Part shown: positions 6,965 through 18,416 of the stretch, one piece after another
Position numbering within the stretch: the first letter of the stretch is position 1
Layout of the letters: every line of letters begins with the position of its first letter
DNA from: a virus
IMG/VR virus record: IMGVR_UViG_3300022842_000036
Coordinates: 1 to 33,421 of that record
Length of the DNA: 33,421 nt
Reading direction: 5' to 3' (one strand)
Notes under the pieces: model-generated
Told to the model about the DNA's origin: nothing
What the model saw: only the letters and a program-made list of their open reading frames with translations
Databases searched by the model: none
Translations under genes and position numbers: made by a program

Positions 6965-7723
6965 ATGGGTATTATTTCAAATGGAACTACAATAATTGAT
7001 AACGGGGCAATCGAGTCAGATAAAGTTGATACTGCACAGATTGCAGCAAGTGCTGTTGAAACAGCAGAAATAAATAACGATGCTGTAACGGCAGATAAAT
7101 TAGAAGACACTGCGGTAACTCCCGCTGAGTACACTTTGGCTACAGTTACTGTTGACGCACAAGGTAGAATTACAGCAGCTTCTTCTGGAAGTGCAGGTGG
7201 TGGAAATATGCAAACGAAATATTTTCAACAAGGACCTTCATCAAGTACATACAGTCCTCCTGCAGATGTAAGCAAGTTTACGGCTTTTGCTTGGGCTGGA
7301 GGCGGTGGAGGCGGAGGTTGGGGAAATTCTTGGAGTAGATCTGGCGGTAACGGAGGAGCAGGTGGTTTTGGTTATTATCAAGGTTCTGTTTCAGGTGGTA
7401 GTAATTATGCAGTTTCTATTGGAGCACCTGGAAACGGCGGTAGTTCTGGTCCATCGGGTAGTGCCGGTAATGCTGGTGGTGCAACTAATGTCGGAAGTTT
7501 ATTCACTGTAAACGCTGGTAACGGAGGAAACGGTGGCTTTGGTTCTGGTAACCCCCAAAATGGAAACCCTGGAAATGCTGGAAATGCTCCAGGAGCAACT
7601 TCAACTCCAACTAAAACAATTTTATTTCAAAGTTCACTTGGTTCAGGAGGAAATGTTTCTCCCAGTAGTTCTGGTGGACCGGGTGGGGCAGGTGGTTTAG
7701 TTTTTTACGATAACGGATTATAA
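6965..7723 (+). CDS. Glycine-rich tail-tip adhesin
   Basis: 252 residues with a strong ribosome site (AAAGGAG, 6953-6959). The N-terminal part (GTTIIDNGAIESDKVDTAQI ... DAVTADKLEDTAV) is a trimeric-fibre type of repeat, followed by VTVDAQGRITAAS. From about residue 105 the protein becomes Gly/Asn/Ser-rich with GG(N/S)GG runs and short Pro-containing tracts (GAPGNGG, SGPSGSAG, NGNPGNAGNAPG). Such sequences form packed polyglycine-II helices in known phage adhesins (S16 gp38 is the model), with variable loops at the tip. It is the likely receptor-recognition element. The Gly-Pro tracts matter because a prolyl-hydroxylase-like gene lies 1.2 kb downstream. Confidence 0.8.
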   Translation: MGIISNGTTIIDNGAIESDKVDTAQIAASAVETAEINNDAVTADKLEDTAVTPAEYTLATVTVDAQGRITAASSGSAGGGNMQTKYFQQGPSSSTYSPPADVSKFTAFAWAGGGGGGGWGNSWSRSGGNGGAGGFGYYQGSVSGGSNYAVSIGAPGNGGSSGPSGSAGNAGGATNVGSLFTVNAGNGGNGGFGSGNPQNGNPGNAGNAPGATSTPTKTILFQSSLGSGGNVSPSSSGGPGGAGGLVFYDNGL

Positions 7724-7725
7724 TT

Positions 7726-8190
7726 ATGGCTTATTTTATTTTTAATACTGAAGGATTTATAACAAAAATAGCAGAAGATGATGTTGGAAAAAGCAAATTA
7801 AACATTACTGACTCTGTTTATGATATAAGAACTGTATCAACAGAAGATTTTAACAATGTAAGATTATCTTTAGGCGAAGCTAGAATGGTAGACAATGTGC
7901 CAACGGTTGTATTAAAAGATTCTCTTCCTGTAAAACCGGGTGAAGAGGGTAGTTTAAATATAAAAACTCAAACTGAATTAGAAGCCGCAATAGATCTAGT
8001 TAAACAAGTTGTATCTCCTATAATAGAACATTGTACAGATCACCCGAACTATTCAGACTATGTATCTTATAAAAACTATTTAGATAGTTTTGATGCAAGT
8101 AGTCTTACTTATCCTTTGACAGATAGATCTTGGGAAGAATATTGCGATAGTAATTCAATAACTTTTTATCATCCTTTACAGCTCCCTTAA
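7726..8190 (+). CDS. Fibre-linked protein, possible adhesin chaperone, 154 aa
   Basis: Begins MAYFIFNTEGFITKIAEDDV three bases after the adhesin stop. The first part is beta-like. A helical segment follows (ELEAAIDLVKQVVSPIIEHC) and then an aromatic-rich tail (SYKNYLDSFDASSLTYPLTD, EEYCDSN). A small protein following a tail-tip adhesin is often an assembly chaperone or a cap; that is context only, since I recognise no family. It is the last gene before the palindrome at 8187-8211, and its stop lies inside the left arm. Confidence 0.6.
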   Translation: MAYFIFNTEGFITKIAEDDVGKSKLNITDSVYDIRTVSTEDFNNVRLSLGEARMVDNVPTVVLKDSLPVKPGEEGSLNIKTQTELEAAIDLVKQVVSPIIEHCTDHPNYSDYVSYKNYLDSFDASSLTYPLTDRSWEEYCDSNSITFYHPLQLP

Positions 8191-8211
8191 ATTAGTTTAA
8201 AACTAATTTAA
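8187..8211. repeat. 25-bp near-perfect palindrome at the fibre/oxygenase-cassette junction
   Basis: Arms TTAAATTAGTTT (8187-8198) and AAACTAATTTAA (8200-8211) are exact reverse complements around one base (8199). The left arm includes the stop codon of the 7726-8190 gene, and the right arm ends one base before ATG 8212. It has almost no G/C and no T-run, so it does not look like a standard intrinsic terminator. A protein-binding operator or an RNA hairpin blocking the 8212 start are the simplest readings. Confidence 0.8.
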
Positions 8212-8952
8212 ATGTTTAATAAAATAATCAAATTTTCTACAGAGAAAGAATATTTAAAGGAAGAAAGTCTTTTTCCAGAAGCCTGTAAATTAAATATACC
8301 AGAATGGTATAAAAAACTAGAGCATTCTGCAGATAATAAAACTATAAAGGGCTGCATGCCTTTTTTAGATACTTTAACTAACGGTTATTTACTAAAAATA
8401 CCAACAGATATTTTTTTAAGCCATAATATTTTAAAAGACAATGAGAGAGGTACAATAATGTCTTCTGGAATGTCTGATTCTAATGGACCTCTTTATGTTA
8501 ATATAAATCATGAAAATAATCCACAAATTCACCCTGTAGATCAAGTAAGTAAAAAATGTCCTTTTGTTAATAAAAATAAAAGTTTACCTTTTCATAAAAT
8601 ACTAAACCCGTGGTTAATTAAAACCCCACCTGGTTACTCTTGTCTATTTTTACCTCCTATGAATAATACAGATGATAGATTTTCTATTATTCCAGGGATT
8701 GTAGATACAGATACTTTTGATATGTATATAAATTTTCCAATAATTGTAAATGGAGATAAATATCCAGTTTTAAAAACTTTGTTGAAAAAAGGAACTCCAT
8801 ATGTTCAGGTTATTCCCTTTAAAAGAGATTCTTGGAAATTAAAAATTGGAGAAGTAGATTTAAAAAAAATGAATAAAAAAAGATATTTCTATAATCTTGA
8901 TTTAGTACATAACTATAAAAATAAATTCTGGAATAAAAAAAGTTGGAAATAA
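8212..8952 (+). CDS. DUF6065-like protein heading the oxygenase cassette
   Basis: 246 residues. Recognisable blocks are IPEWYKKL (about 29-36), GCMPFLDTLTNGYLL, NPWLIKTPPGYSCLFLPPMN (about 132-151), IIPGIVDTDTFDMYINFP and GTPYVQVIPFKRDSW. The order TPPGY...PPxN...PGIVxTDxF...xINxxF...GxPxxxxxPxxR is how I remember the DUF6065 family, so this is probably a distant member. The biochemical role of that family is unknown to me. Similar genes sit with 2OG oxygenases in marine phages. No Shine-Dalgarno is visible and the ATG directly abuts the 25-bp palindrome, so expression is probably controlled there. Confidence 0.55.
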   Translation: MFNKIIKFSTEKEYLKEESLFPEACKLNIPEWYKKLEHSADNKTIKGCMPFLDTLTNGYLLKIPTDIFLSHNILKDNERGTIMSSGMSDSNGPLYVNINHENNPQIHPVDQVSKKCPFVNKNKSLPFHKILNPWLIKTPPGYSCLFLPPMNNTDDRFSIIPGIVDTDTFDMYINFPIIVNGDKYPVLKTLLKKGTPYVQVIPFKRDSWKLKIGEVDLKKMNKKRYFYNLDLVHNYKNKFWNKKSWK

Positions 8953-9530
8953 TGGAAGATAATTTAATTAACTACATTAAAGTTTATGAAAATGTTTTAG
9001 ACGAGGAAACTTTAAATAATTTTTTAAAAGTTTGTGAAACTAATCAAAATTTTAAAGACGCAGCTATTGTAGATAATGTAAAAGAAAAATTAGATTTAAA
9101 AATTAGAAAAACAAAGACATGGAGCCTAATCAATTCAATAAATGAAAAAAGTCTTACTTCCGTACATTGGTGTAATTATTTAATAAATGTATTTTCGGAA
9201 AAAATAGGAGAATACTTTTCTGTTTTTAAAGGAGATTTAAATGTATTTATAAACGACATACAGGTTTTAAAATATGATGTAGGAGGTCATTACAAGTTTC
9301 ATGTCGATCATGGATCCAGTACACCAAGAACTTTAAGTCTTATTTTTATTTTAAATGATTCTTATGAGGGAGGAGATTTATTATTTAAAACAGATTTTGG
9401 ATCTAAAGAATTTAAAATTAAAACTAAAAAAAATACTTTAATAATTTGGCCAAGTAATTTTTTATATCCTCATTGCGTAACACCTGTTACAAAAGGAGTG
9501 AGGTATTCAGTAGTATCGTGGGCTTTATAA
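8952..9530 (+). CDS. 2-oxoglutarate/Fe(II) dioxygenase, prolyl 4-hydroxylase-like
   Basis: 192 residues from ATG 8952, which overlaps the upstream stop (TAATG); a TTG three codons earlier is in frame but less likely. The double-stranded beta-helix core carries the iron triad H117-x-D119 (HYKFHVDH) and H174 (LYPHCVTPV), and R184 (GVRYSVVSW) for 2-oxoglutarate. LSLIFILNDSYEGGDLLF and LIIWPSNFLYPH are classic P4H/2OG-FeII_Oxy_3 segments. It should hydroxylate a substrate with O2 and 2-oxoglutarate, giving succinate and CO2. Protein side chains (Pro, Lys) are usual P4H substrates, but the target here is unknown. All catalytic residues are present. Confidence 0.85.
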   Translation: MEDNLINYIKVYENVLDEETLNNFLKVCETNQNFKDAAIVDNVKEKLDLKIRKTKTWSLINSINEKSLTSVHWCNYLINVFSEKIGEYFSVFKGDLNVFINDIQVLKYDVGGHYKFHVDHGSSTPRTLSLIFILNDSYEGGDLLFKTDFGSKEFKIKTKKNTLIIWPSNFLYPHCVTPVTKGVRYSVVSWAL

Positions 9531-10063
9531 TGGATAGATTTAAAATAATTAAAAATTTTTTAAATAAAGAAGAAGTCAGTTTGTTTAAGATATGGTCTGA
9601 TATAATGCATAGAAAAAATTTAAAAAACTTTGATCAAGACAGGAACCAACCCAATAAAGATACTTGTTTTTATGGAACAGCTGCTACAGATGCCTTACTT
9701 ATAAAAAATATTTCTTGTGTGAGTGAAAACACTGGTTTTAAATTATTACCAAGTTATTCTTATGGGCGTGTTTATACAAAATTTGCTCATCTAAAAAAAC
9801 ATGTGGATAGACCTTCTTGCGAAATATCAGTAACCATACAAGTAGGAAGTGATGGAACTCCATGGCCTATATTTATGGGTGGAGAAAAAGTGTTATTAGA
9901 AGAAGGAGATGCTGCACTATATAAAGGCACAGAAGTTCCTCATTGGAGGGAAGAGTTTCAAGGAGACTGGCATTCTCAAATATTTTTACATTATGTAAAA
10001 GCTGATGGTGACTACAAAGAATATTACATAGATAAAAGAAAACTTTTTGGTACAAAAAAATAA
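9530..10063 (+). CDS. Putative 2OG-Fe(II) oxygenase-like protein with HxD...H
   Basis: 177 residues from ATG 9530 (TAATG overlap); the frame extends further upstream into the previous gene, but that start is unlikely. Candidate metal residues are H91-x-D93 (LKKHVDRPSCEISVTIQVG) and H138 in GTEVPHWREEF, followed by QGDWHSQIFLHYV. The spacing of HxD, the 'WPIFMGGE.V.L..GDAALYKG' beta-hairpin and the distal His match 2OG dioxygenase folds seen in marine phages, in a different subfamily from the previous gene. Substrate unknown. H148 could be a functional alternative to H138. Confidence 0.7.
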   Translation: MDRFKIIKNFLNKEEVSLFKIWSDIMHRKNLKNFDQDRNQPNKDTCFYGTAATDALLIKNISCVSENTGFKLLPSYSYGRVYTKFAHLKKHVDRPSCEISVTIQVGSDGTPWPIFMGGEKVLLEEGDAALYKGTEVPHWREEFQGDWHSQIFLHYVKADGDYKEYYIDKRKLFGTKK

Positions 10064-10068
10064 ATAAT

Positions 10069-10287
10069 ATGAATTTTAAACAAAATAAAGATGGTTCTGG
10101 AGAAATTATTTTTTCAAAAGAAGAAATTAATATTATTAAAAAAAATAAAAAATTAATGTTAACTCCTGTTTCATTAAGACATTTTGGAAATGTTTTAGTT
10201 AGAATGGTGACTGATTGGAATTTGAATTTTTCAAAGGAGGTATCTAATTTACCAACAGAGTCTGATTCAAAAGTTGAAGGAAAATAA
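10069..10287 (+). CDS. Small protein of the oxygenase cassette, 72 aa
   Basis: Begins MNFKQNKDGSGEIIFSKEEI and contains LMLTPVSLRHFGNVLVRMVT and DWNLNF. The 'F..EE..II.K.KKL.L...SL.HFGN.L..MV.DWN..F' pattern resembles short conserved proteins found in marine phage oxygenase cassettes, without known activity. No ribosome site is seen; the ATG lies five bases after the previous stop. Strongly AT-rich like its neighbours. No metal-binding pattern. May be a partner or regulator of the adjacent enzymes, but this is only context. Confidence 0.55.
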   Translation: MNFKQNKDGSGEIIFSKEEINIIKKNKKLMLTPVSLRHFGNVLVRMVTDWNLNFSKEVSNLPTESDSKVEGK

Positions 10288-10291
10288 AGAT

Positions 10292-10762
10292 ATGGTTCAA
10301 GTAGAAAATAATTATTTAGATAACGTAGAATTTTCTAAAATACAGAAAGTGGTATCTTCTAAAGATTTTTTATGGTCAATTAAAAAAATGAATCCTTTTA
10401 TTTTAAGTCATTGTTTAGTAGATAAACAAGGAGAAAATAGAAGTTATTTTATAGATAAAGTTTTAAGTAGTGTGTTGAAAAAATTAAAAGCAGAAATTGT
10501 TTTAGAGTCCAGTATTACTGTTTATGACAAATATAATGAAGCACAAGAGCATTTAGCAGAATCTGAATTTTTAAAAAATAAGAGCTATAAAAGTTGTTTA
10601 TTATATTTAAATTCTAACGATGGTTTTACTAAAATATTAGGTTTAGAAAAAATCCATTGTGTAGAAAATAGAGCTGTATTAACAGATGTATCTACTTCTT
10701 TTACAGAAATTAATCCCATAAAAAATAATTTTAAAACTGTTCTAGCTGTTCATTATTTATAA
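10292..10762 (+). CDS. Degenerate 2OG-Fe(II) oxygenase relative, probably non-catalytic
   Basis: 156 residues from ATG 10292; an in-frame TTG at 10274 is possible. AAGGAA (10277-10282) is a reasonable ribosome site. The C-terminal half (SCLLYLNSNDGFTKI...KIHCVENRAVL) closely follows the phage 2OG family segment usually written 'YYxNTNNGYTxF...VExVENRxV...KHxG...RxVINFxY'. In that frame the iron HxD falls at H87-L88-A89 (Asp lost), the distal His is absent (STSF, 134-137), and the 2OG-binding Arg appears as K148. If the alignment is right, it cannot bind iron normally and may be a pseudoenzyme subunit. The ORF is intact. Confidence 0.55.
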   Translation: MVQVENNYLDNVEFSKIQKVVSSKDFLWSIKKMNPFILSHCLVDKQGENRSYFIDKVLSSVLKKLKAEIVLESSITVYDKYNEAQEHLAESEFLKNKSYKSCLLYLNSNDGFTKILGLEKIHCVENRAVLTDVSTSFTEINPIKNNFKTVLAVHYL

Positions 10763-10773
10763 ACTTAAATTGT

Positions 10774-11310
10774 ATGCCACTAAATATATCTCTAAACCCA
10801 AAAGAAAAAGAAAATATTGATAAAAATAAAATAACTTTTGTCAAAGATTTTTGTAAAATAGAAACGAAGTATGACTTTAATTTATTAACTTCTTTTATTG
10901 AAGAATGTGAAGTAGCTGTTTTAATAAAAAATAATAATGAATTTTTAAAAACAGTTGTTCAATTAAGAAATTTACAAGATATGTTTCCAGATTTTAAATT
11001 TATTCAAAGTTTTTTATCTCAAGTTTTTAATTATTGTTTAGATAAGAGAGACGGCTGTGATATATTTTTTAGCCTTAAAAGTTCAGCTGGAATAAGCCAT
11101 GTAGATGAGGAAGATGTTTTTATAATTGGATTGAATGGAATAACAGTATATAAAACTTTTGGAAAAAACACAGATTATTTTGAAATACACAAAGGTGATT
11201 TAATATATATACCAAAGGGAGTACCTCACAAAGTTATTGGACTGTCTCCTAGAATAATACTTTCTGTTGGATTTCACGGTAATAGACAGATAACTAACAA
11301 AGAACTATAA
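10774..11310 (+). CDS. Cupin/JmjC-type Fe(II) oxygenase-like protein
   Basis: 178 residues. The C-terminal beta-barrel carries H109-x-D111 (SAGISHVDEEDVFIIGLNG) and H152 in KGDLIYIPKGVPHKVIGL, the arrangement of JmjC/cupin hydroxylases such as FIH or ribosomal oxygenases. The N-terminal half is helical (LLTSFIEECEVAVLI, LRNLQDMFPDFKF). JmjC hydroxylases act on protein side chains (Asn, His, Arg). It is about half the length of cellular members, so it is a minimal domain. No Shine-Dalgarno; TATAAA at 10758-10763 lies 10 bases before the ATG. A simple cupin without oxygenase activity is an alternative. Confidence 0.7.
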   Translation: MPLNISLNPKEKENIDKNKITFVKDFCKIETKYDFNLLTSFIEECEVAVLIKNNNEFLKTVVQLRNLQDMFPDFKFIQSFLSQVFNYCLDKRDGCDIFFSLKSSAGISHVDEEDVFIIGLNGITVYKTFGKNTDYFEIHKGDLIYIPKGVPHKVIGLSPRIILSVGFHGNRQITNKEL

Positions 11311-11311
11311 A
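11283..11311 (+). promoter_or_regulatory. Candidate promoter giving a leaderless halogenase mRNA
   Basis: TAGACA (11283-11288), 17-base spacer, TATAAA (11306-11311), then exactly six bases to ATG 11318. A transcript starting seven bases after the -10 would begin on the start codon. The promoter lies in the 3' end of the preceding gene. No ribosome site precedes 11318, which fits leaderless translation. The same TAGACA-17-TATAWA-N6-ATG pattern occurs at 16442-16479. Confidence 0.5.
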
Positions 11312-11317
11312 AGTTAT

Positions 11318-12448
11318 ATGAAATTAAAAAAACAAAAAATTGCTATTCTCGGAAGAGGTAACGCCGGATGCTTAAGTGCATTACATTTTAATCATTATAC
11401 AGCGGATGCAGACCGTGAAATTGAGCTATACTACGACCCAGAAATAAAACCTGTTCCTACGGGACAAGGATCTACTTTAGCATATCCAAATTTACTTTGG
11501 AAAACTTTAGGAAGTGATTGGGTTAAAAAACTTCCTTTAACTTTAAAAACAGGAATAATGTATGAAAATTGGGGAAATGTTAAAGATGAATTTTTTCACC
11601 CTTTTCCTCTGGGTAACTATAGTATTCATTGTTCTCCAAAAGATTTTCAAGAATATGTGTGCAATAATCTTAAAGTTAATTTTAAAGAAACAACTGAAAA
11701 TATTTTAAACTATGATCAAATAGACGCTGATTATATTATTGATTGTAGAGGAACTCCTAAAAGTTTTGAAAATTATGATAGTTTAGTTAATCCTTTAAAT
11801 GCTGCACTACTGGCAAATCTACCTAAAAAAAAACATGATGTTAAATACACAAGATGTATAGCAACGCCTCACGGATGGACTTTTTATATACCTTTACCAG
11901 ATACTACTTCTATAGGTTATTTATATAATTCAAACATTACATCTAAAGAAGAAGCTGAAAATGATTTTAAAGAACGATTTAAAGTAGATAAAATTAATCA
12001 TTCAATTAAATTTAGCCAGTATTTAGCTAAAGAACCGGTAATAGACAAAAGAATTTTTTTAAACGGAAATAAACTTTTTTTTCTAGAACCTCTGGAAGCT
12101 AGTGCTATAAATTCATATATTAAAGCAAACAGATGGTATTTTGATGTAATTAATAATTTATCTACAGCCGAAGATTGTAAAAATAATATAAAAGAATATA
12201 TGAGTGAAATAGAAAGTTTTATTTTATGGCATTATATAAAAGGATCTAAATTTAAAACTTCTTTTTGGAAATATGCGCAAGATCTAGCTAAAGAAAATAA
12301 GTCTAGTTCTATTAAACAAATTGAAAACCAAATTTTAAATTTTAATCAAAAAGAAAAAAAGTTTATTAGGAATGAAGAAAATTTTGAGTATGGTCAATGG
12401 TCATTAATGAGTTTTGATAATTGGATTGAAGGAGTAAGCATAAAATAA
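11318..12448 (+). CDS. Tryptophan-halogenase-like FAD-dependent protein
   Basis: 376 residues. FAD Rossmann motif G12-R-G-N-A-G17 after a hydrophobic strand; PVPTGQGSTLAYPNLLWKTL (45-64) sits where halogenases have 'GEAT.P.L'. K77 in LTLKTGIMYENWG fits the catalytic Lys that activates HOCl. ADYIIDCRG (137-145) is the second dinucleotide-fold segment, and FLEPLEASAI (255-264) matches the EPLE(S/A) chloride/FAD strap. The halogenase-specific WxWxIP is HGWTFYIPLP: the first Trp is kept (W187), the second is Phe189. It is about 160 residues shorter than PrnA. Role: halogenation or related oxidation of an indole or similar group; it needs reduced FAD from a host reductase. Substrate unknown. Confidence 0.75.
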   Translation: MKLKKQKIAILGRGNAGCLSALHFNHYTADADREIELYYDPEIKPVPTGQGSTLAYPNLLWKTLGSDWVKKLPLTLKTGIMYENWGNVKDEFFHPFPLGNYSIHCSPKDFQEYVCNNLKVNFKETTENILNYDQIDADYIIDCRGTPKSFENYDSLVNPLNAALLANLPKKKHDVKYTRCIATPHGWTFYIPLPDTTSIGYLYNSNITSKEEAENDFKERFKVDKINHSIKFSQYLAKEPVIDKRIFLNGNKLFFLEPLEASAINSYIKANRWYFDVINNLSTAEDCKNNIKEYMSEIESFILWHYIKGSKFKTSFWKYAQDLAKENKSSSIKQIENQILNFNQKEKKFIRNEENFEYGQWSLMSFDNWIEGVSIK

Positions 12449-13077
12449 TGTTTGAGCCTCAAATAATACCTATTTTTTCAAAAGTAGTGTATATTGATTA
12501 TTTAGACATAGATAATAATATAATTTTAAAAACTCTTGAACAAGAATCTTTTAAAAAAATCTGGGAAGAAGGATCTACAGACAGTCTATGTAAGGTTTCA
12601 TTAAATAAATCTATATTAGAAAAAAAAGAACTCTATTCTTTAAAAGAAAAAATATTTACTGTTTTTAAAAAATATACAAAAAATGTTTTAAAATATAACT
12701 ATAATGATTTTAAGATGACAACATCTTGGATTACAAAAACAAATATCAATCAAAGTTCTTTAATACATAATCATAATAACTCTATGTTAAGTGGTGTATT
12801 ATATTTAAAAACAGAACCTAAAAAAGCTAAAATTATTTTTCACAACCATTCTAATAACTCTAGTTGGAAGTTAAGCACTTCTGAAAGTAATATCTACAAT
12901 TCTGATAAATATACTTTTGATATGAGTGAAAATTTAATAATATTTTTTCCTTCAGAAACCCATCATCAGATTAAAGCTAGTGAGCAACAAACCGAAAGAA
13001 CTTCATTAGCTTTTAATTTTTGTCCCATTGGAGAAATAGGAGAAATAGGTTCAGATAGTTTTATGGAGGTAAAATAG
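12448..13077 (+). CDS. Putative 2OG-Fe(II) oxygenase of the 2OG-FeII_Oxy_5 (TIGR02466-like) family
   Basis: 209 residues; TAATG overlap with the halogenase gene. The core SSLIHNHNNSMLSGVLYL (103-120) and LIIFFPSETHHQI (163-175) with R184 (TERTSLAFNFCPIG) follow the family pattern 'H.H.NS.LSGVYYL...L.LFPS.L.H.V......R.SISFN'. Here H107 and H109 occupy the first ligand motif and H172/H173 the distal one, so the usual HxD is HxH, normal for this subgroup as I remember it. It ends with a short GEIGEIG repeat. Substrate unknown. Like its neighbours it is a minimal single-domain enzyme. Confidence 0.75.
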   Translation: MFEPQIIPIFSKVVYIDYLDIDNNIILKTLEQESFKKIWEEGSTDSLCKVSLNKSILEKKELYSLKEKIFTVFKKYTKNVLKYNYNDFKMTTSWITKTNINQSSLIHNHNNSMLSGVLYLKTEPKKAKIIFHNHSNNSSWKLSTSESNIYNSDKYTFDMSENLIIFFPSETHHQIKASEQQTERTSLAFNFCPIGEIGEIGSDSFMEVK

Positions 13078-13616
13078 TGTACCCTACAATAATAAAAAAA
13101 AATTTGTTTAAAAACCCTTTAAGTATAGTTAACTATTCTAAGACACTTAAATGGAATAAATCAACTGATAAAGATAATTGGCCTGGTTCAAGAACAGATA
13201 ATTTACTTAACATTAATCTAGATTTACATTTTTCAATAATTCAGAATGTGGTTGAAATGTATTTTGGAGATTACGATAAAAAATACAAATCACTTGAAAT
13301 TGATAAAAGCATAATATGTTTTCATAAAATTAAATATGAAGATTGGATAAATTCCATTAAACCTAATAATAAAATACATCAAGATAACTGTGATTTAGCG
13401 GGCATAATTTATTTAAATCTAGACGTAAATGATGAAAATACAGGGACTTCTTTATATGATGAAAATAAAAAGCCTACATTAAAAATATCTAATAATTTTA
13501 ACACTATTGCATGTTATGATGGAAAAGCTTATCATGGAGCTACTTCTTTAGATAAAGAAGAAAGATTAACTATGGTAATATTTTTAAGTGGGATTAAGCT
13601 ACCCTCAACCAAATAA
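13077..13616 (+). CDS. Putative 2OG-Fe(II) oxygenase, DUF6445-like
   Basis: 179 residues from GTG 13077, overlapping the upstream TAG by one base; GGAGG at 13065-13069 supports this start. Iron-binding candidates are H101-x-D103 (NNKIHQDNCDLAGIIYLN) and H153 (DGKAYHGATS), with R163 (EERLTMVIFLSGI) as the 2OG anchor. The TGTSLYDE turn between them (122-129) matches 'GTGLY' of DUF6445-type proteins in marine phages. It closes the cassette; the next gene returns to virion structure. All putative catalytic residues are intact; substrate unknown. Confidence 0.75.
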   Translation: MYPTIIKKNLFKNPLSIVNYSKTLKWNKSTDKDNWPGSRTDNLLNINLDLHFSIIQNVVEMYFGDYDKKYKSLEIDKSIICFHKIKYEDWINSIKPNNKIHQDNCDLAGIIYLNLDVNDENTGTSLYDENKKPTLKISNNFNTIACYDGKAYHGATSLDKEERLTMVIFLSGIKLPSTK

Positions 13617-13667: not shown

Positions 13668-15815
13668 ATGGCTTTAAATTTAATTAATATAAGACCAGGA
13701 TTTAACAAACAAATTACAGATACTGCTGCTGAAGGGCAATATGTAGACGGAGATTTTGTAAGATTTCGTTATGGGTTACCTGAAAAAGTGGGTGGATGGT
13801 CTTCTATTACTTCAGATACCTTAGCTGGTGCCGTAAGAGCACAGCATCAATGGGCAGATTTAGATGGTAATAGATATGTAGCACTTGGATCCCAGAGAGG
13901 ATTATATATTTATTATGGAGGAGCGTATTATGATATTACTCCACTAGAGACAGCGCAAACAGGAGGAACGTTTGATACTACAAACACCTCGCCAACGGTC
14001 ACCGTAAACCTAACGGGGCATAATATGATTGCCGGAGACTACTTTACTTTTACAAGTGTAACCCCACCAGTTGGTGCAGGGTACACTGCAGCTAATTTTA
14101 CTGACCAAACTTTTGAAGTAATTAGTGCAACAATTAATACATTTACCATAACGATGGCAACGAATGCGGGAGTTACTGTTGCAGGGTCAGGTGCATGTAC
14201 TATCAACAGATATGTTAAAGTAGGACCTATCGGACAAACATTTGGCTTTGGATTTGGAACAGGTGGTTACGGAGGAGCATCTGGACTTACTACAAACTTA
14301 GATGGAGCTTTATTAGACGACTCTGCAGGTACTGGAGGATCTGGAACTTCTATTACACTTGCATCAACAACAGGGTTTCCAACATCGGGAGTAATTAAAG
14401 TTGGAGCAGAATTTATTTCCTATACAGGTATTTCAACTAATGATCTTACAGGAATTACAAGAGCAGTGGCTGGAACACGATCAGCTCATTCTACTTTAGC
14501 AGGGGTAGAGTATTACACTGCGTGGGGTGCAGCATCTTTATCTTCTACTGTCACACTAGATCCAGCTGATTGGGCTTTAGATAACTTTGGACAAATATTA
14601 ACAGCTACTATATTAAAAGGAAGAACTTTTACATGGCAGCCTATAAGTAATAATAATAATGCTTTATCAGTTAGAGCAACTATTATGGCAAACGCTCCTA
14701 CTAAAACAACTGTTTCAATTGTATCAGACACAGACAGACATTTTTTACATTTAGGAACGGAATCAATAATTGGAACTCCTTCAAGTTTTGATCCAATGTT
14801 AATAAGATTTTCTGACCAAGAAAACTTTAGTGATTATCAACCAACTGCTATTAATACAGCAGGTACTTTTAGAATAGATGATGGAACTGAAATTGTAGGT
14901 GCAGTAAAAGCAAAAGACTATATTTTGGTTTTTACAGATACCGCAGCATATACAATGCAATATGTTGGAGCACCTTTTACTTTTAGTATTAGAAAGGTAG
15001 GATCTAATTGTGGTTTAATGAGCTCACATTCTATGGCTTTTGTAGACGGAGTTGTTTATTGGATGGATGATGCAGGTTCTTTTAATGCTTACAATGGAAC
15101 AGTTGTTAAAATACCTTGTTCAGTGGAAGATTTTGTATTTACTACGAATAACCCAGGAAACTTAGGATTTAATTATGATGCTGGAAGAATAACTTACGCT
15201 AGCCACAATTCATTATTTAATGAAATAAATTGGTTCTATGCTTCGAGTTCAGCTACTGAAATAGATAGATGTGTTACATATAATTACTCAGAAAAAGTTT
15301 GGTACACAAGTTCTTTAGCTAGAACATCTTACTATGATGCTCATTTATTTGACAAACCTTATGCTACTTCTTTTTATAACGCAGGATTACCTACTTTCCC
15401 AGTTATACAGGGAGTGACAAATACTTCTGGATCTGCTACATTTTGGACACATGAAACGGGAGTGGATCAATTGGATAATGGAGTAACTACAACAATCTCT
15501 GCTTTTATTGAAACCGGAGATTTTATGATACACTTAGAGGGTGATGGAGAATACTTTACAAAAATTAGAAGATTTATACCTGATTTTCAAAGACTAGACG
15601 GAACTGCAACAGTTACTATTTTATTAAAAGATTATCCATCAGATACAGCATCTAGTTCTTCTTTAGGACCTTTTTCTGTAACATCAAGTACACAAAAAAT
15701 AGATACACGTGCTAGAGGAAGATCAGCTAGTTTAAAAATAGCTAATCTATCTAGTGGACAAACTTGGAGATATGGAACTTTTAGAGCAGACATACAACCT
15801 GATGGTAGAAGATAA
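13668..15815 (+). CDS. Large tail hub/nozzle-type structural protein (P22 gp10-like class)
   Basis: 715 residues. Opens MALNLINIRPGFNKQITDTA with DGDFVRFRYGLPEKVGGWSS (about 28-47), the standard start of a large podoviral tail protein in marine phages, related in role to P22 gp10 (tail stabilisation) or SU10-type nozzle. The middle is beta-rich with repeated motifs (QHQWADLDGNRYVALGSQRG), a Gly-rich stretch (GFGFGTGGYGG) and propeller-like segments (DGTEIVGAVKAKDYILVFTD; FVDGVVYWMDDAGSFNAYNG). The C-terminus is a beta-sandwich ending RYGTFRADIQPDGRR. It should follow the adaptor ring in the tail. The ATG lies at the predicted transcription start. Confidence 0.75.
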   Translation: MALNLINIRPGFNKQITDTAAEGQYVDGDFVRFRYGLPEKVGGWSSITSDTLAGAVRAQHQWADLDGNRYVALGSQRGLYIYYGGAYYDITPLETAQTGGTFDTTNTSPTVTVNLTGHNMIAGDYFTFTSVTPPVGAGYTAANFTDQTFEVISATINTFTITMATNAGVTVAGSGACTINRYVKVGPIGQTFGFGFGTGGYGGASGLTTNLDGALLDDSAGTGGSGTSITLASTTGFPTSGVIKVGAEFISYTGISTNDLTGITRAVAGTRSAHSTLAGVEYYTAWGAASLSSTVTLDPADWALDNFGQILTATILKGRTFTWQPISNNNNALSVRATIMANAPTKTTVSIVSDTDRHFLHLGTESIIGTPSSFDPMLIRFSDQENFSDYQPTAINTAGTFRIDDGTEIVGAVKAKDYILVFTDTAAYTMQYVGAPFTFSIRKVGSNCGLMSSHSMAFVDGVVYWMDDAGSFNAYNGTVVKIPCSVEDFVFTTNNPGNLGFNYDAGRITYASHNSLFNEINWFYASSSATEIDRCVTYNYSEKVWYTSSLARTSYYDAHLFDKPYATSFYNAGLPTFPVIQGVTNTSGSATFWTHETGVDQLDNGVTTTISAFIETGDFMIHLEGDGEYFTKIRRFIPDFQRLDGTATVTILLKDYPSDTASSSSLGPFSVTSSTQKIDTRARGRSASLKIANLSSGQTWRYGTFRADIQPDGRR

Positions 15816-16678: not shown

Positions 16679-17623
16679 ATGCAACCATTAGGTGGAACGG
16701 AGTTGCAATATGCTCAGTTATATAAACACGTAGATAATACGCTGTTAGATAAGTTTCAGATAACTACCTCTATTCCAGAAAAAACACCTTTATCTAAAGA
16801 TAAAATTAATATTCTTTGGGCACAAAATTCTTACGATCAAAGTAACTTAGCTCCATGGTTTGAAGATAAATCTAATCATAATAAATACGATTGGTATGTA
16901 TTTAATTCCCATTGGTGTGCTGAAAAGTTTAGAATGGCTTTTGAAGTACCCCCCGAAAAATGTGTTGTTATTAAAAATGCTATAGAAAAATTTGCACCTA
17001 AAACTATTCATAAAAACGGTGATAAAATAAAACTAATATATACTTCTACTCCATGGAGAGGATTATCTGTATTACTAGGTGCTATGCAGTTAATTAAAAA
17101 TCCTTTAATAGAATTAGATGTTTATTCCTCTACCCAAATATATGGAGATGCTTTTAAAAAAGCTAATGATACTTCTTATAGAGATTTATATAAACAAGCT
17201 AAAAAATTACCTAATGTAAATTATATAGGCTATGCTTCTAACGAAAAAATAATAAAAAAGATGGGCGAGTATAAAATATTTGCTTATCCTAATATATGGG
17301 AAGAGACTTCTTGTATGTCGGCTATTGAAGCTTTAGGAAGTGGACTTCATGGAATTGTAACTAATTATGGAGCTTTGTTTGAGACGTGTTCAGAGTGGCC
17401 AACTTACGTTCAATATGATAGAGATTACAGAAATTTAGCTAAATGTTTTGCTTATGCAATTGAAGGAATTGCAGAACAACTTCATTCAGTAGGAATGCAA
17501 CAGTTATTAGATTCTCAAGTATCTTTTTATAAGAAATTTTATAGTTGGGAAAATAGAAAAAACGAATGGACTAACTTTTTACAAGGAGTATATGATTCAA
17601 AATCACGAACCAATTTGGTTTAA
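16679..17623 (+). CDS. GT-B glycosyltransferase, GT4-like
   Basis: 314 residues. GGTELQYAQL (5-14) is the N-terminal donor/acceptor loop; WYVFNSHWCAEKF and KCVVIKNAIE (95-103) mark the domain linker; KLIYTSTPWRGLSVLLGAM (118-136) begins the C-terminal Rossmann domain. E209 and E217 (EETSCMSAIEALGSG) form the E-x7-E nucleotide-sugar motif of GT4 enzymes. The N-terminal domain is short, but an in-frame stop just upstream fixes the start. It probably transfers a sugar to a phage or host surface glycan or to a virion protein. It overlaps the next glycosyltransferase gene by 32 bases, so the two likely work together. Donor and acceptor cannot be read from sequence. Confidence 0.8.
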   Translation: MQPLGGTELQYAQLYKHVDNTLLDKFQITTSIPEKTPLSKDKINILWAQNSYDQSNLAPWFEDKSNHNKYDWYVFNSHWCAEKFRMAFEVPPEKCVVIKNAIEKFAPKTIHKNGDKIKLIYTSTPWRGLSVLLGAMQLIKNPLIELDVYSSTQIYGDAFKKANDTSYRDLYKQAKKLPNVNYIGYASNEKIIKKMGEYKIFAYPNIWEETSCMSAIEALGSGLHGIVTNYGALFETCSEWPTYVQYDRDYRNLAKCFAYAIEGIAEQLHSVGMQQLLDSQVSFYKKFYSWENRKNEWTNFLQGVYDSKSRTNLV

Positions 17624-18416
17624 CGAAGAACCATCGACACCGGACACTAAGAAAAAAGCAGGCTATTCTTTATTTGTAGCAACACCTGTTCATAGTGAAT
17701 GCTCTATTCATTATGCTCAAGCTTTATTAAATCTACAAAAATATTGTTTTAAAAAGAATGTAAAATTATGGTTTTCCATAATGAAGTCTTCATTAGTTAC
17801 TCAAGGAAGAAACATGTGTGTAAGCGCATTTCTACAACAAAAAGAAGCTACTCATTTATTATTTGTTGATTCAGATATTTCTTTTAATGAATCTGCTGCG
17901 GAAAGATTAGTTGCTTGTGATAAAGATGTTATCTCTATTCCATATCCTTTAAAAGATATAAATTGGGATAAAGGAATGCATATGATTAAAGAAGGTAAGA
18001 TTAAAGAAGCTAAAGATTTAAGAAACAAAGGTTTTTACAGATACCCTATGAAAGTAGAAAATAATTCTGCTATTAAAATTAAAGATGGAGTTATTAAAGT
18101 AGAACATTCTCCAACAGGTTTTATGTTAATAAAAAGAGAAGTAATTCTTAAAATGATAAAGGCTTATCCAGAAATGAGAATTGATCAAGACCAAATTATT
18201 AATGGTAAGAATGAAAAACTACCTGATTTTTGGAATTTTTTTGATACTCAATTTGATCCTGTTAAACATACTTACACGGGAGAAGACTTTGCTTTTTGCC
18301 AAAGATGGAAAGACATTGGAGGTGAATGCCATGCTTGGATTATGGATCACATAACTCATATTGGAGAACATCAATATACAGGTCGTTTTGCGGATGAGTT
18401 GATAAAGACTGACTAA
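17592..18416 (+). CDS. GT-A glycosyltransferase-like protein
   Basis: 274 residues; ribosome site AAGGAG (17583-17588) and ATG 17592 inside the end of the previous gene. After SLFVATPVHSECSIHYAQAL (26-45) comes SSLVTQGRNMCVSAFL and then the metal/nucleotide-sugar DxD, D93-S-D95, in THLLFVDSDISF (87-98). Late motifs VEHSPTGFMLIKREV and YTGEDFAFCQRWKDIGG, with HITHIGEHQY, match phage and bacterial GT-A proteins of this type. Likely a metal-dependent retaining or inverting transferase; donor unknown. Operon partner of the GT4-like gene. Confidence 0.75.
   Translation: MIQNHEPIWFNEEPSTPDTKKKAGYSLFVATPVHSECSIHYAQALLNLQKYCFKKNVKLWFSIMKSSLVTQGRNMCVSAFLQQKEATHLLFVDSDISFNESAAERLVACDKDVISIPYPLKDINWDKGMHMIKEGKIKEAKDLRNKGFYRYPMKVENNSAIKIKDGVIKVEHSPTGFMLIKREVILKMIKAYPEMRIDQDQIINGKNEKLPDFWNFFDTQFDPVKHTYTGEDFAFCQRWKDIGGECHAWIMDHITHIGEHQYTGRFADELIKTD

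Follow-up and report, generated by a model that had tools for sequence, protein, structure and literature searches.

A marine phage cassette of oxygenases and a halogenase homologue, proposed to tailor the glycine-rich adhesin encoded beside it

The 33.4-kb viral record IMGVR_UViG_3300022842_000036 of IMG/VR (the window, meaning the whole stretch of DNA analysed) contains at positions 8212-13616 a cassette of nine open reading frames (ORFs a-i), all on the + strand, which fill the stretch. These include five oxygenases whose iron sites are intact (b, c, f, h and i), a DUF6065-like protein (a), a halogenase homologue (g) and a degenerate oxygenase relative (e). The cassette is preceded by a gene for a glycine-rich tail-fibre adhesin, and hundreds of marine phage contigs show the same adhesin-cassette arrangement; in these, the presence of a short halogenase gene co-varies with tryptophan in the adhesin. 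We propose, with a probability of roughly 0.6, that the cassette is used for post-translational tailoring of the phage's own receptor-binding tip. The adhesin is favoured as the substrate because its fibre fold, the synteny and the tryptophan co-variation all point there. The module extends upstream beyond 8212-13616, and its decisive context is the adhesin side.

The adhesin was recognized by its match to Pfam Gly_rich_2 (27.7 bits, cut-off 24.3) and by its AlphaFold2 model (pLDDT, the predicted local distance difference test, 90-97 over much of the glycine-rich part), which resembles the fibre gp24 of cyanophage Pam3 (Z 15.9, 162 aa, 2.5 Å) and, to a weaker degree, the ALK/LTK glycine-rich domain. 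Alignment of 39 adhesin relatives shows hypervariable segments within a conserved glycine framework. Two tryptophans of the window adhesin, Trp119 and Trp123 (coded at nt 7319 and 7331), are located inside the first of the hypervariable segments, which is flanked by conserved glycine motifs, with Trp110 (nt 7292) just before this segment. Collagen-like Gly-X-Y repeats were considered as the substrate of the prolyl 4-hydroxylase (P4H)-like enzyme b, and rejected, as the adhesins hold few (GXY)n runs and their domain is poly-glycine. The adhesin is followed in nearly every DUF6065-type locus by the 154-aa ORF, for which no match was found in Pfam or among PDB sequences, including none to Pam3 gp25, so that it could not be placed in a known chaperone family; without detectable homology, the name putative fibre chaperone is an inference from position and size.

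Two known systems resemble this pair of genes or its adhesin. In the available portion of PMC9608196, receptor binding is proposed for the distal loops of the Pam3 glycine-rich domain, and gp25, a 162-aa chaperone, folds the fibre. Like Pam3 gp24 (PDB 7YPX), the window adhesin has a receptor-binding domain that is rich in glycine and hypervariable, and the next gene, a chaperone of ~160 aa in Pam3, has a putative counterpart in the 154-aa ORF; that portion describes no tailoring enzymes for Pam3. Likewise, in the gp38 adhesins of the T-even-type phages S16 and PP01, hypervariable receptor loops protrude from a poly-glycine II framework; unlike the window adhesin, gp38 is located at the gp37 tip, and the sections of PMC12892980 at hand describe no modifying enzymes for it.

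The recurrence of the module was studied in two samples, and strong synteny was found among the marine phage contigs. In the first, 80 marine contigs were located via the DUF6065 gene. The recurrent order is adhesin, an ORF of ~147 aa, DUF6065, P4H, c, an ORF of ~75 aa, usually variable oxygenases, and a tail gene of ~715 aa; in all loci inspected, the ~147-aa ORF is preceded by a glycine-rich gene. A glycine-rich ORF is present two genes off in 67/69 loci of this set, and within four genes of DUF6065 in 68 loci, compared with a permutation mean of 37.4 (maximum 51); the same permutation applied to a c-anchored set gave 35 vs 22.8 (maximum 32). For the second, independent sample, 77 loci were retrieved through another ~150-aa protein, a non-oxygenase encoded behind the adhesin of other phages. 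A glycine-rich adhesin lies directly upstream in 72 of these, and an oxygenase lies within three genes in all 64 loci with three genes in view. Across loci, the adhesin, the ~150-aa ORF, P4H and c stay, while the accessory enzymes vary freely. Complete cassettes contain 1-9 oxygenase-type genes each (approximate counts, since the family hidden Markov models of b, e, h and i overlap), placing the window at the rich end but not making it unique. The preliminary description of the window, made from its sequence, had described such genes as occurring singly in marine phages. This does not hold: mixed cassettes, with 2-9 oxygenase-type genes at this site, are common in uncultured marine phages, and clusters are present in the cultured pelagiphages HTVC033P, Mosig (EXVC030M) and HTVC008M, where glycine-rich ORFs come before P4H, c and further oxygenases. 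A DUF6065 relative is also found a few genes from a glycine-rich ORF, on the opposite strand, in the haloarchaeal viruses HF1 (L094 6001-8742) and HSTV-2 (L095 6001-9167), where the stretch examined contains no member of the oxygenase families.

The link between halogenase and adhesin was found by comparing the adhesins of cassettes with and without a halogenase gene. In a first sample, tryptophan is present in the glycine-rich domain of 18/18 halogenase cassettes vs 24/64 without halogenase, a comparison for which adhesin family and length are possible confounders. Within one adhesin type at equal length, the counts are 14/14 and 28/63, respectively (p = 7e-5). A prediction was then fixed beforehand for new halogenase loci, with tryptophan expected in at least 90% and a value of 60% or less taken as refutation; tryptophan was present in 15/16 new short-halogenase loci, so that the prediction held by locus. 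The split into short and long halogenases (long being 430 aa or more, and fetched separately) was introduced at the replication analysis, outside the written prediction. In the pooled loci, tryptophan is found in the glycine-rich domain for 34/35 with a short halogenase, 22/41 with a long one and 51/111 with none (short vs long, p = 1.2e-5; short vs none, p = 7e-9), the long-halogenase loci being no different from cassettes without halogenase. The association is also present at the level of sequence clusters (21/22 vs 39/69, p = 6e-4) and after matching each short-halogenase locus to its three nearest relatives without a short halogenase (24 vs 1, p = 8e-6). Tryptophan came first of the 20 residues in the association ranking, and showed no increase in the ~150-aa protein or the remaining ORFs of the loci. 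Among cultured phages, the cyanophages S-RIM14 and S-RIM4 have both a short halogenase and a glycine-rich ORF that contains tryptophan.

The halogenase homologue g matches the Trp_halogenase family PF04820 (E 6e-34, cut-off 21 bits), and contains the FAD motif GRGNAG (GxGxxG) and the catalytic Lys77 and Glu260, which are kept across the homologue set. The motif GWxWxIP is replaced by GWTFYIP, in which the second Trp is Phe, and in length the protein falls about 100-150 residues short of the tryptophan halogenases with solved structures. Judged from its sequence, g is an intact short flavin halogenase homologue with predicted halogenating activity. It shares its Pfam family and active-site Lys and Glu with flavin-dependent tryptophan halogenases such as the marine viral VirX1 (PDB 6QGM), but belongs to the short type (376 vs 531 aa), and only this type tracks adhesin tryptophan. 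In 84,980 cellular genomes, the short halogenase was found at 6 loci, mostly in metagenome-assembled genomes of Euryarchaeota; a cellular origin was rejected, these loci lacking a window-like adhesin-oxygenase cassette. Some cassettes (L111, L113 and L117) contain two halogenase genes, which in L113 and L117 are one short and one long.

The preliminary description had correctly listed five iron oxygenases, a degenerate relative and a halogenase-like flavoprotein, since profile searches, which place most of the ORFs in oxygenase families, and intact iron sites agree on this inventory. The P4H-like b matches 2OG-FeII_Oxy_3 (E 4e-18; H117xD119...H174), f matches JmjC_2 (34.4 bits, cut-off 22; H109xD111...H152), h matches 2OG-FeII_Oxy_5 (E 6e-15; H107xH109...H173), and i matches phrog_1644, together with a weak 2-oxoglutarate (2OG) oxygenase match (H101xD103...H153). 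No Pfam family was matched by c, which belongs to phrog_2954 (E 2e-45) and has H91xD93...H138, kept in 61 sequences. In homologue alignments, the iron triads of all five are kept at 95% or more. No HxD...H triad is recognizable in e, in either the window ORF or the relatives shown, and e is therefore regarded as a degenerate member. One PHROG, phrog_3531 (362 aa), has the pattern expected of a fusion, its first half aligning to c and its second half to b. The annotation 'ferrochelatase' is widespread among relatives of c, and the PHROG of e is labelled 'DNA endonuclease V'; both labels look like misannotations of 2OG-oxygenase-type proteins.

The remaining two ORFs are a and d. The DUF6065-like a belongs to phrog_7084 (E 8e-42), and scores 14.2 bits with Pfam DUF6065 (PF19541), under the cut-off of 26.6. 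A model built from 36 sequences (pLDDT 84.7) resembles dUTPase (Z 10.7 (VIA), 119 residues, 2.4 Å), and all 50 listed entries are dUTPases; the best Foldseek E is only 0.01, and no sequence match was found in PDB. Two candidate dUTPase motifs, GIVDTDTF (motif-3-like) and GTPYVQV (motif-4-like), were spotted by eye. DUF6065 is accordingly predicted from its model to have a dUTPase-like fold, ruling out a degenerate oxygenase; no mention of it was found in the literature searched. The 72-aa d comes after c in many DUF6065-type loci, and matches no PHROG or Pfam family above noise. A precursor resembling those of ribosomally synthesized and post-translationally modified peptides was considered for d and rejected: it is conserved over its full length up to a variable C-terminal tail, and therefore does not consist of a leader and a variable core.

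If the cassette tailors the receptor-binding tip, the upstream gene would supply a glycine-rich tail-fibre adhesin with hypervariable loops, most likely folded and trimerised by the 154-aa protein. The core enzymes b and c would hydroxylate side chains of the glycine-rich domain, probably assisted by the 72-aa protein and by DUF6065, for which roles as an enzyme and as a trimeric assembly factor were both considered. The changing accessory set f, h, i and g would put further marks on loop residues, with the short halogenase g acting on loop tryptophans, by halogenation or hydroxylation. Such marks would change receptor binding or tip stability.

Other explanations differ in the substrate of the enzymes, or in whether they act together at all. 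The preliminary description had envisaged multi-step tailoring with a virion protein among the listed substrates, and this option is the one now favoured. Its small-molecule pathway found no positive support, and a pathway to a small molecule or peptide that is oxidised and halogenated appears highly improbable. Natural-product clusters combine a halogenase with oxygenases, as the cassette does, but no scaffold-making, peptide-maturation or export gene was seen in it by profile searches, the 72-aa protein has the wrong pattern of conservation for a precursor, and the adhesin is constant across loci in which the set of enzymes varies freely. Neutral hitch-hiking, in which unrelated morons collect at a recombination hotspot where the adhesin operon ends and the tryptophan link arises from shared ancestry, is rather unlikely. 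It would account for the strong differences in accessory genes among loci, fits the variable islands that marine phages have near host-recognition genes (PMC3909814), and gains from the sampling of loci by homology; however, P4H, c and the ~150-aa ORF occur almost invariably and not at random, the iron sites are kept, and the tryptophan link survives neighbour matching, length matching and the long-halogenase control.

Host manipulation, in which the oxygenases modify host proteins (e.g. ribosomal) or draw down 2OG and the halogenase alters host metabolites, is considered unlikely. The tail-module location, the synteny with one adhesin type and the tryptophan co-variation are not predicted by it, and two fixed plus several changing oxygenases would be odd for 2OG draw-down, despite the weak resemblance of JmjC_2 to ribosomal protein L16 arginine hydroxylases, the 2OG/nitrogen role proposed for cyanophages in the accessible part of PMC3037559, and the metabolite halogenation reviewed in PMC10452541. 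A further alternative retains the adhesin as the target, but takes g to be a flavin monooxygenase hydroxylating tryptophan (compare QhpG) instead of a halogenase. The weak QhpG match (E 0.002, far under the cut-off), the Phe in GWTFYIP and the short length of g are in keeping with this, but the halogenase catalytic Lys and Glu are kept, and we regard it as decidedly unlikely.

Several observations weigh against tailoring of the adhesin as proposed. No modified residue has been seen: the gene anatomy, active sites, predicted folds, synteny and tryptophan-halogenase co-variation are observed, and the substrate, the chemistry at individual residues and the advantage to the phage are inferred. Adhesin tryptophan is also found in roughly half of the loci that lack a short halogenase, so that its presence is not diagnostic, and by ORF the new short-halogenase loci (15/17) narrowly missed the predicted 90%. 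Permutation of halogenase position relative to glycine-rich ORFs gave no enrichment (15 vs 17.8), because many halogenases sit in other contexts: 37 distinct short halogenases have fewer than 2 oxygenases and no glycine-rich ORF in view, and several cultured cyanophages carry a halogenase far from any adhesin. Within the DUF6065-type subset alone, the tryptophan link consists of two related loci. An exploratory enzyme-residue screen also gave associations of long halogenase with Cys and of h with Cys. Residual phylogenetic confounding, which is never completely removable, may lie behind the tryptophan link.

The features of the module are listed in the table. The cassette has a GC content of 24-29%, compared with about 30-43% in most of the remaining window. 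The cassette bounds given in the preliminary description are real as sequence features, both the 25-nt repeat on the left and the promoter-like site with a 14-nt dyad on the right. The left repeat was rejected as a mobile-element boundary, as in this form only near-identical relatives carry it; given this, and the presence of an inverted repeat of any kind (arms of at least 8) upstream of 25/142 DUF6065 genes, it does not serve as a boundary of such modules in general. Behind the tail gene, at 16679-18416, are two ORFs with glycosyltransferase-related PHROG matches (phrog_2170; phrog_1574 plus a weak glycosyltransferase match).

Table. Coordinates of the cassette ORFs and flanking features in the window
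Feature	Position	Strand	Basis or remark
Glycine-rich tail-fibre adhesin, proposed substrate	6965..7723	+	Gly_rich_2 score, Pam3 fibre fold match
154-aa ORF, putative fibre chaperone	7726..8190	+	Position and size (compare Pam3 gp25, 162 aa)
25-nt inverted repeat, 12-bp arms	8187..8211		This repeat only in close relatives
a: DUF6065-like protein, predicted dUTPase-like beta-clip fold	8212..8952	+	phrog_7084, model
b: P4H-like 2OG/Fe(II) oxygenase, core	8952..9530	+	Profile, iron triad; alternative TTG start 8943
c: 2OG-type oxygenase, core	9530..10063	+	phrog_2954; start in ORF list is TTG 9473
d: 72-aa conserved small protein	10069..10287	+	Relatives' alignment; HFGNxLvkiv motif
e: degenerate 2OG-oxygenase relative	10274..10762	+	phrog_274; HxD...H not recognizable
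f: JmjC/cupin oxygenase, accessory	10774..11310	+	JmjC_2, HxD...H
g: short (376 aa) flavin-dependent halogenase homologue, accessory	11318..12448	+	PF04820, 118 bits
h: 2OG-FeII_Oxy_5 oxygenase, HxH...H, accessory	12448..13077	+	Profile, iron triad
i: DUF6445-like/phrog_1644 2OG oxygenase, HxD...H, accessory	13077..13616	+	Profile, iron triad
715-aa virion structural/tail gene closing the variable slot	13668..15815	+	phrog_3287, E 2e-80; same role in relatives

An extension of the proposed tailoring is a modular residue code, in which swapped oxygenases and halogenases would each mark one side chain in the hypervariable loops of their own adhesin. We regard this as possible, with the odds somewhat against it. 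The short halogenase would act on tryptophan, and perhaps the long one on histidine: long-halogenase loci have more adhesin His (10.5 vs 6.3 per 1000 residues, p 3e-6; neighbour-matched p 1e-4) in an exploratory comparison (L383-L460). Host recognition would then be diversified by chemistry besides sequence.

Related enzymes are known from other viruses. The 2OG oxygenases of T4-like cyanophages and pelagiphages belong to the same enzyme families, with several per genome; in the available part of PMC3037559, they are ascribed to nitrogen/2OG metabolism or DNA repair, and no link to adhesins is made there. The use of viral prolyl 4-hydroxylase is called 'cryptic' in a study of Baltic Sea viruses (PMC9301287), which notes collagen in tail fibres. 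The virus-encoded prolyl 4-hydroxylase of PBCV-1, a eukaryotic algal virus, is discussed alongside collagen-like tail-fibre proteins (cited in PMC9301287, available in part); by contrast, in the window P4H, c and several other enzymes lie behind a glycine-rich non-collagen adhesin. Phage halogenases are treated as acting on metabolites in PMC10452541. No published link between these enzymes and phage adhesins was found in a literature search that left subscription journals mostly outside.

The 2OG oxygenases and tryptophan-halogenase homologues of marine phages have until now mostly been treated as metabolic genes. Through the link to the adhesin, the receptor-binding tip becomes a concrete candidate for their substrate, with named residues and cultured phages. 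If true, sequence alone would be insufficient for describing phage receptor-binding proteins, and host-range prediction would need to take chemical marks into account.

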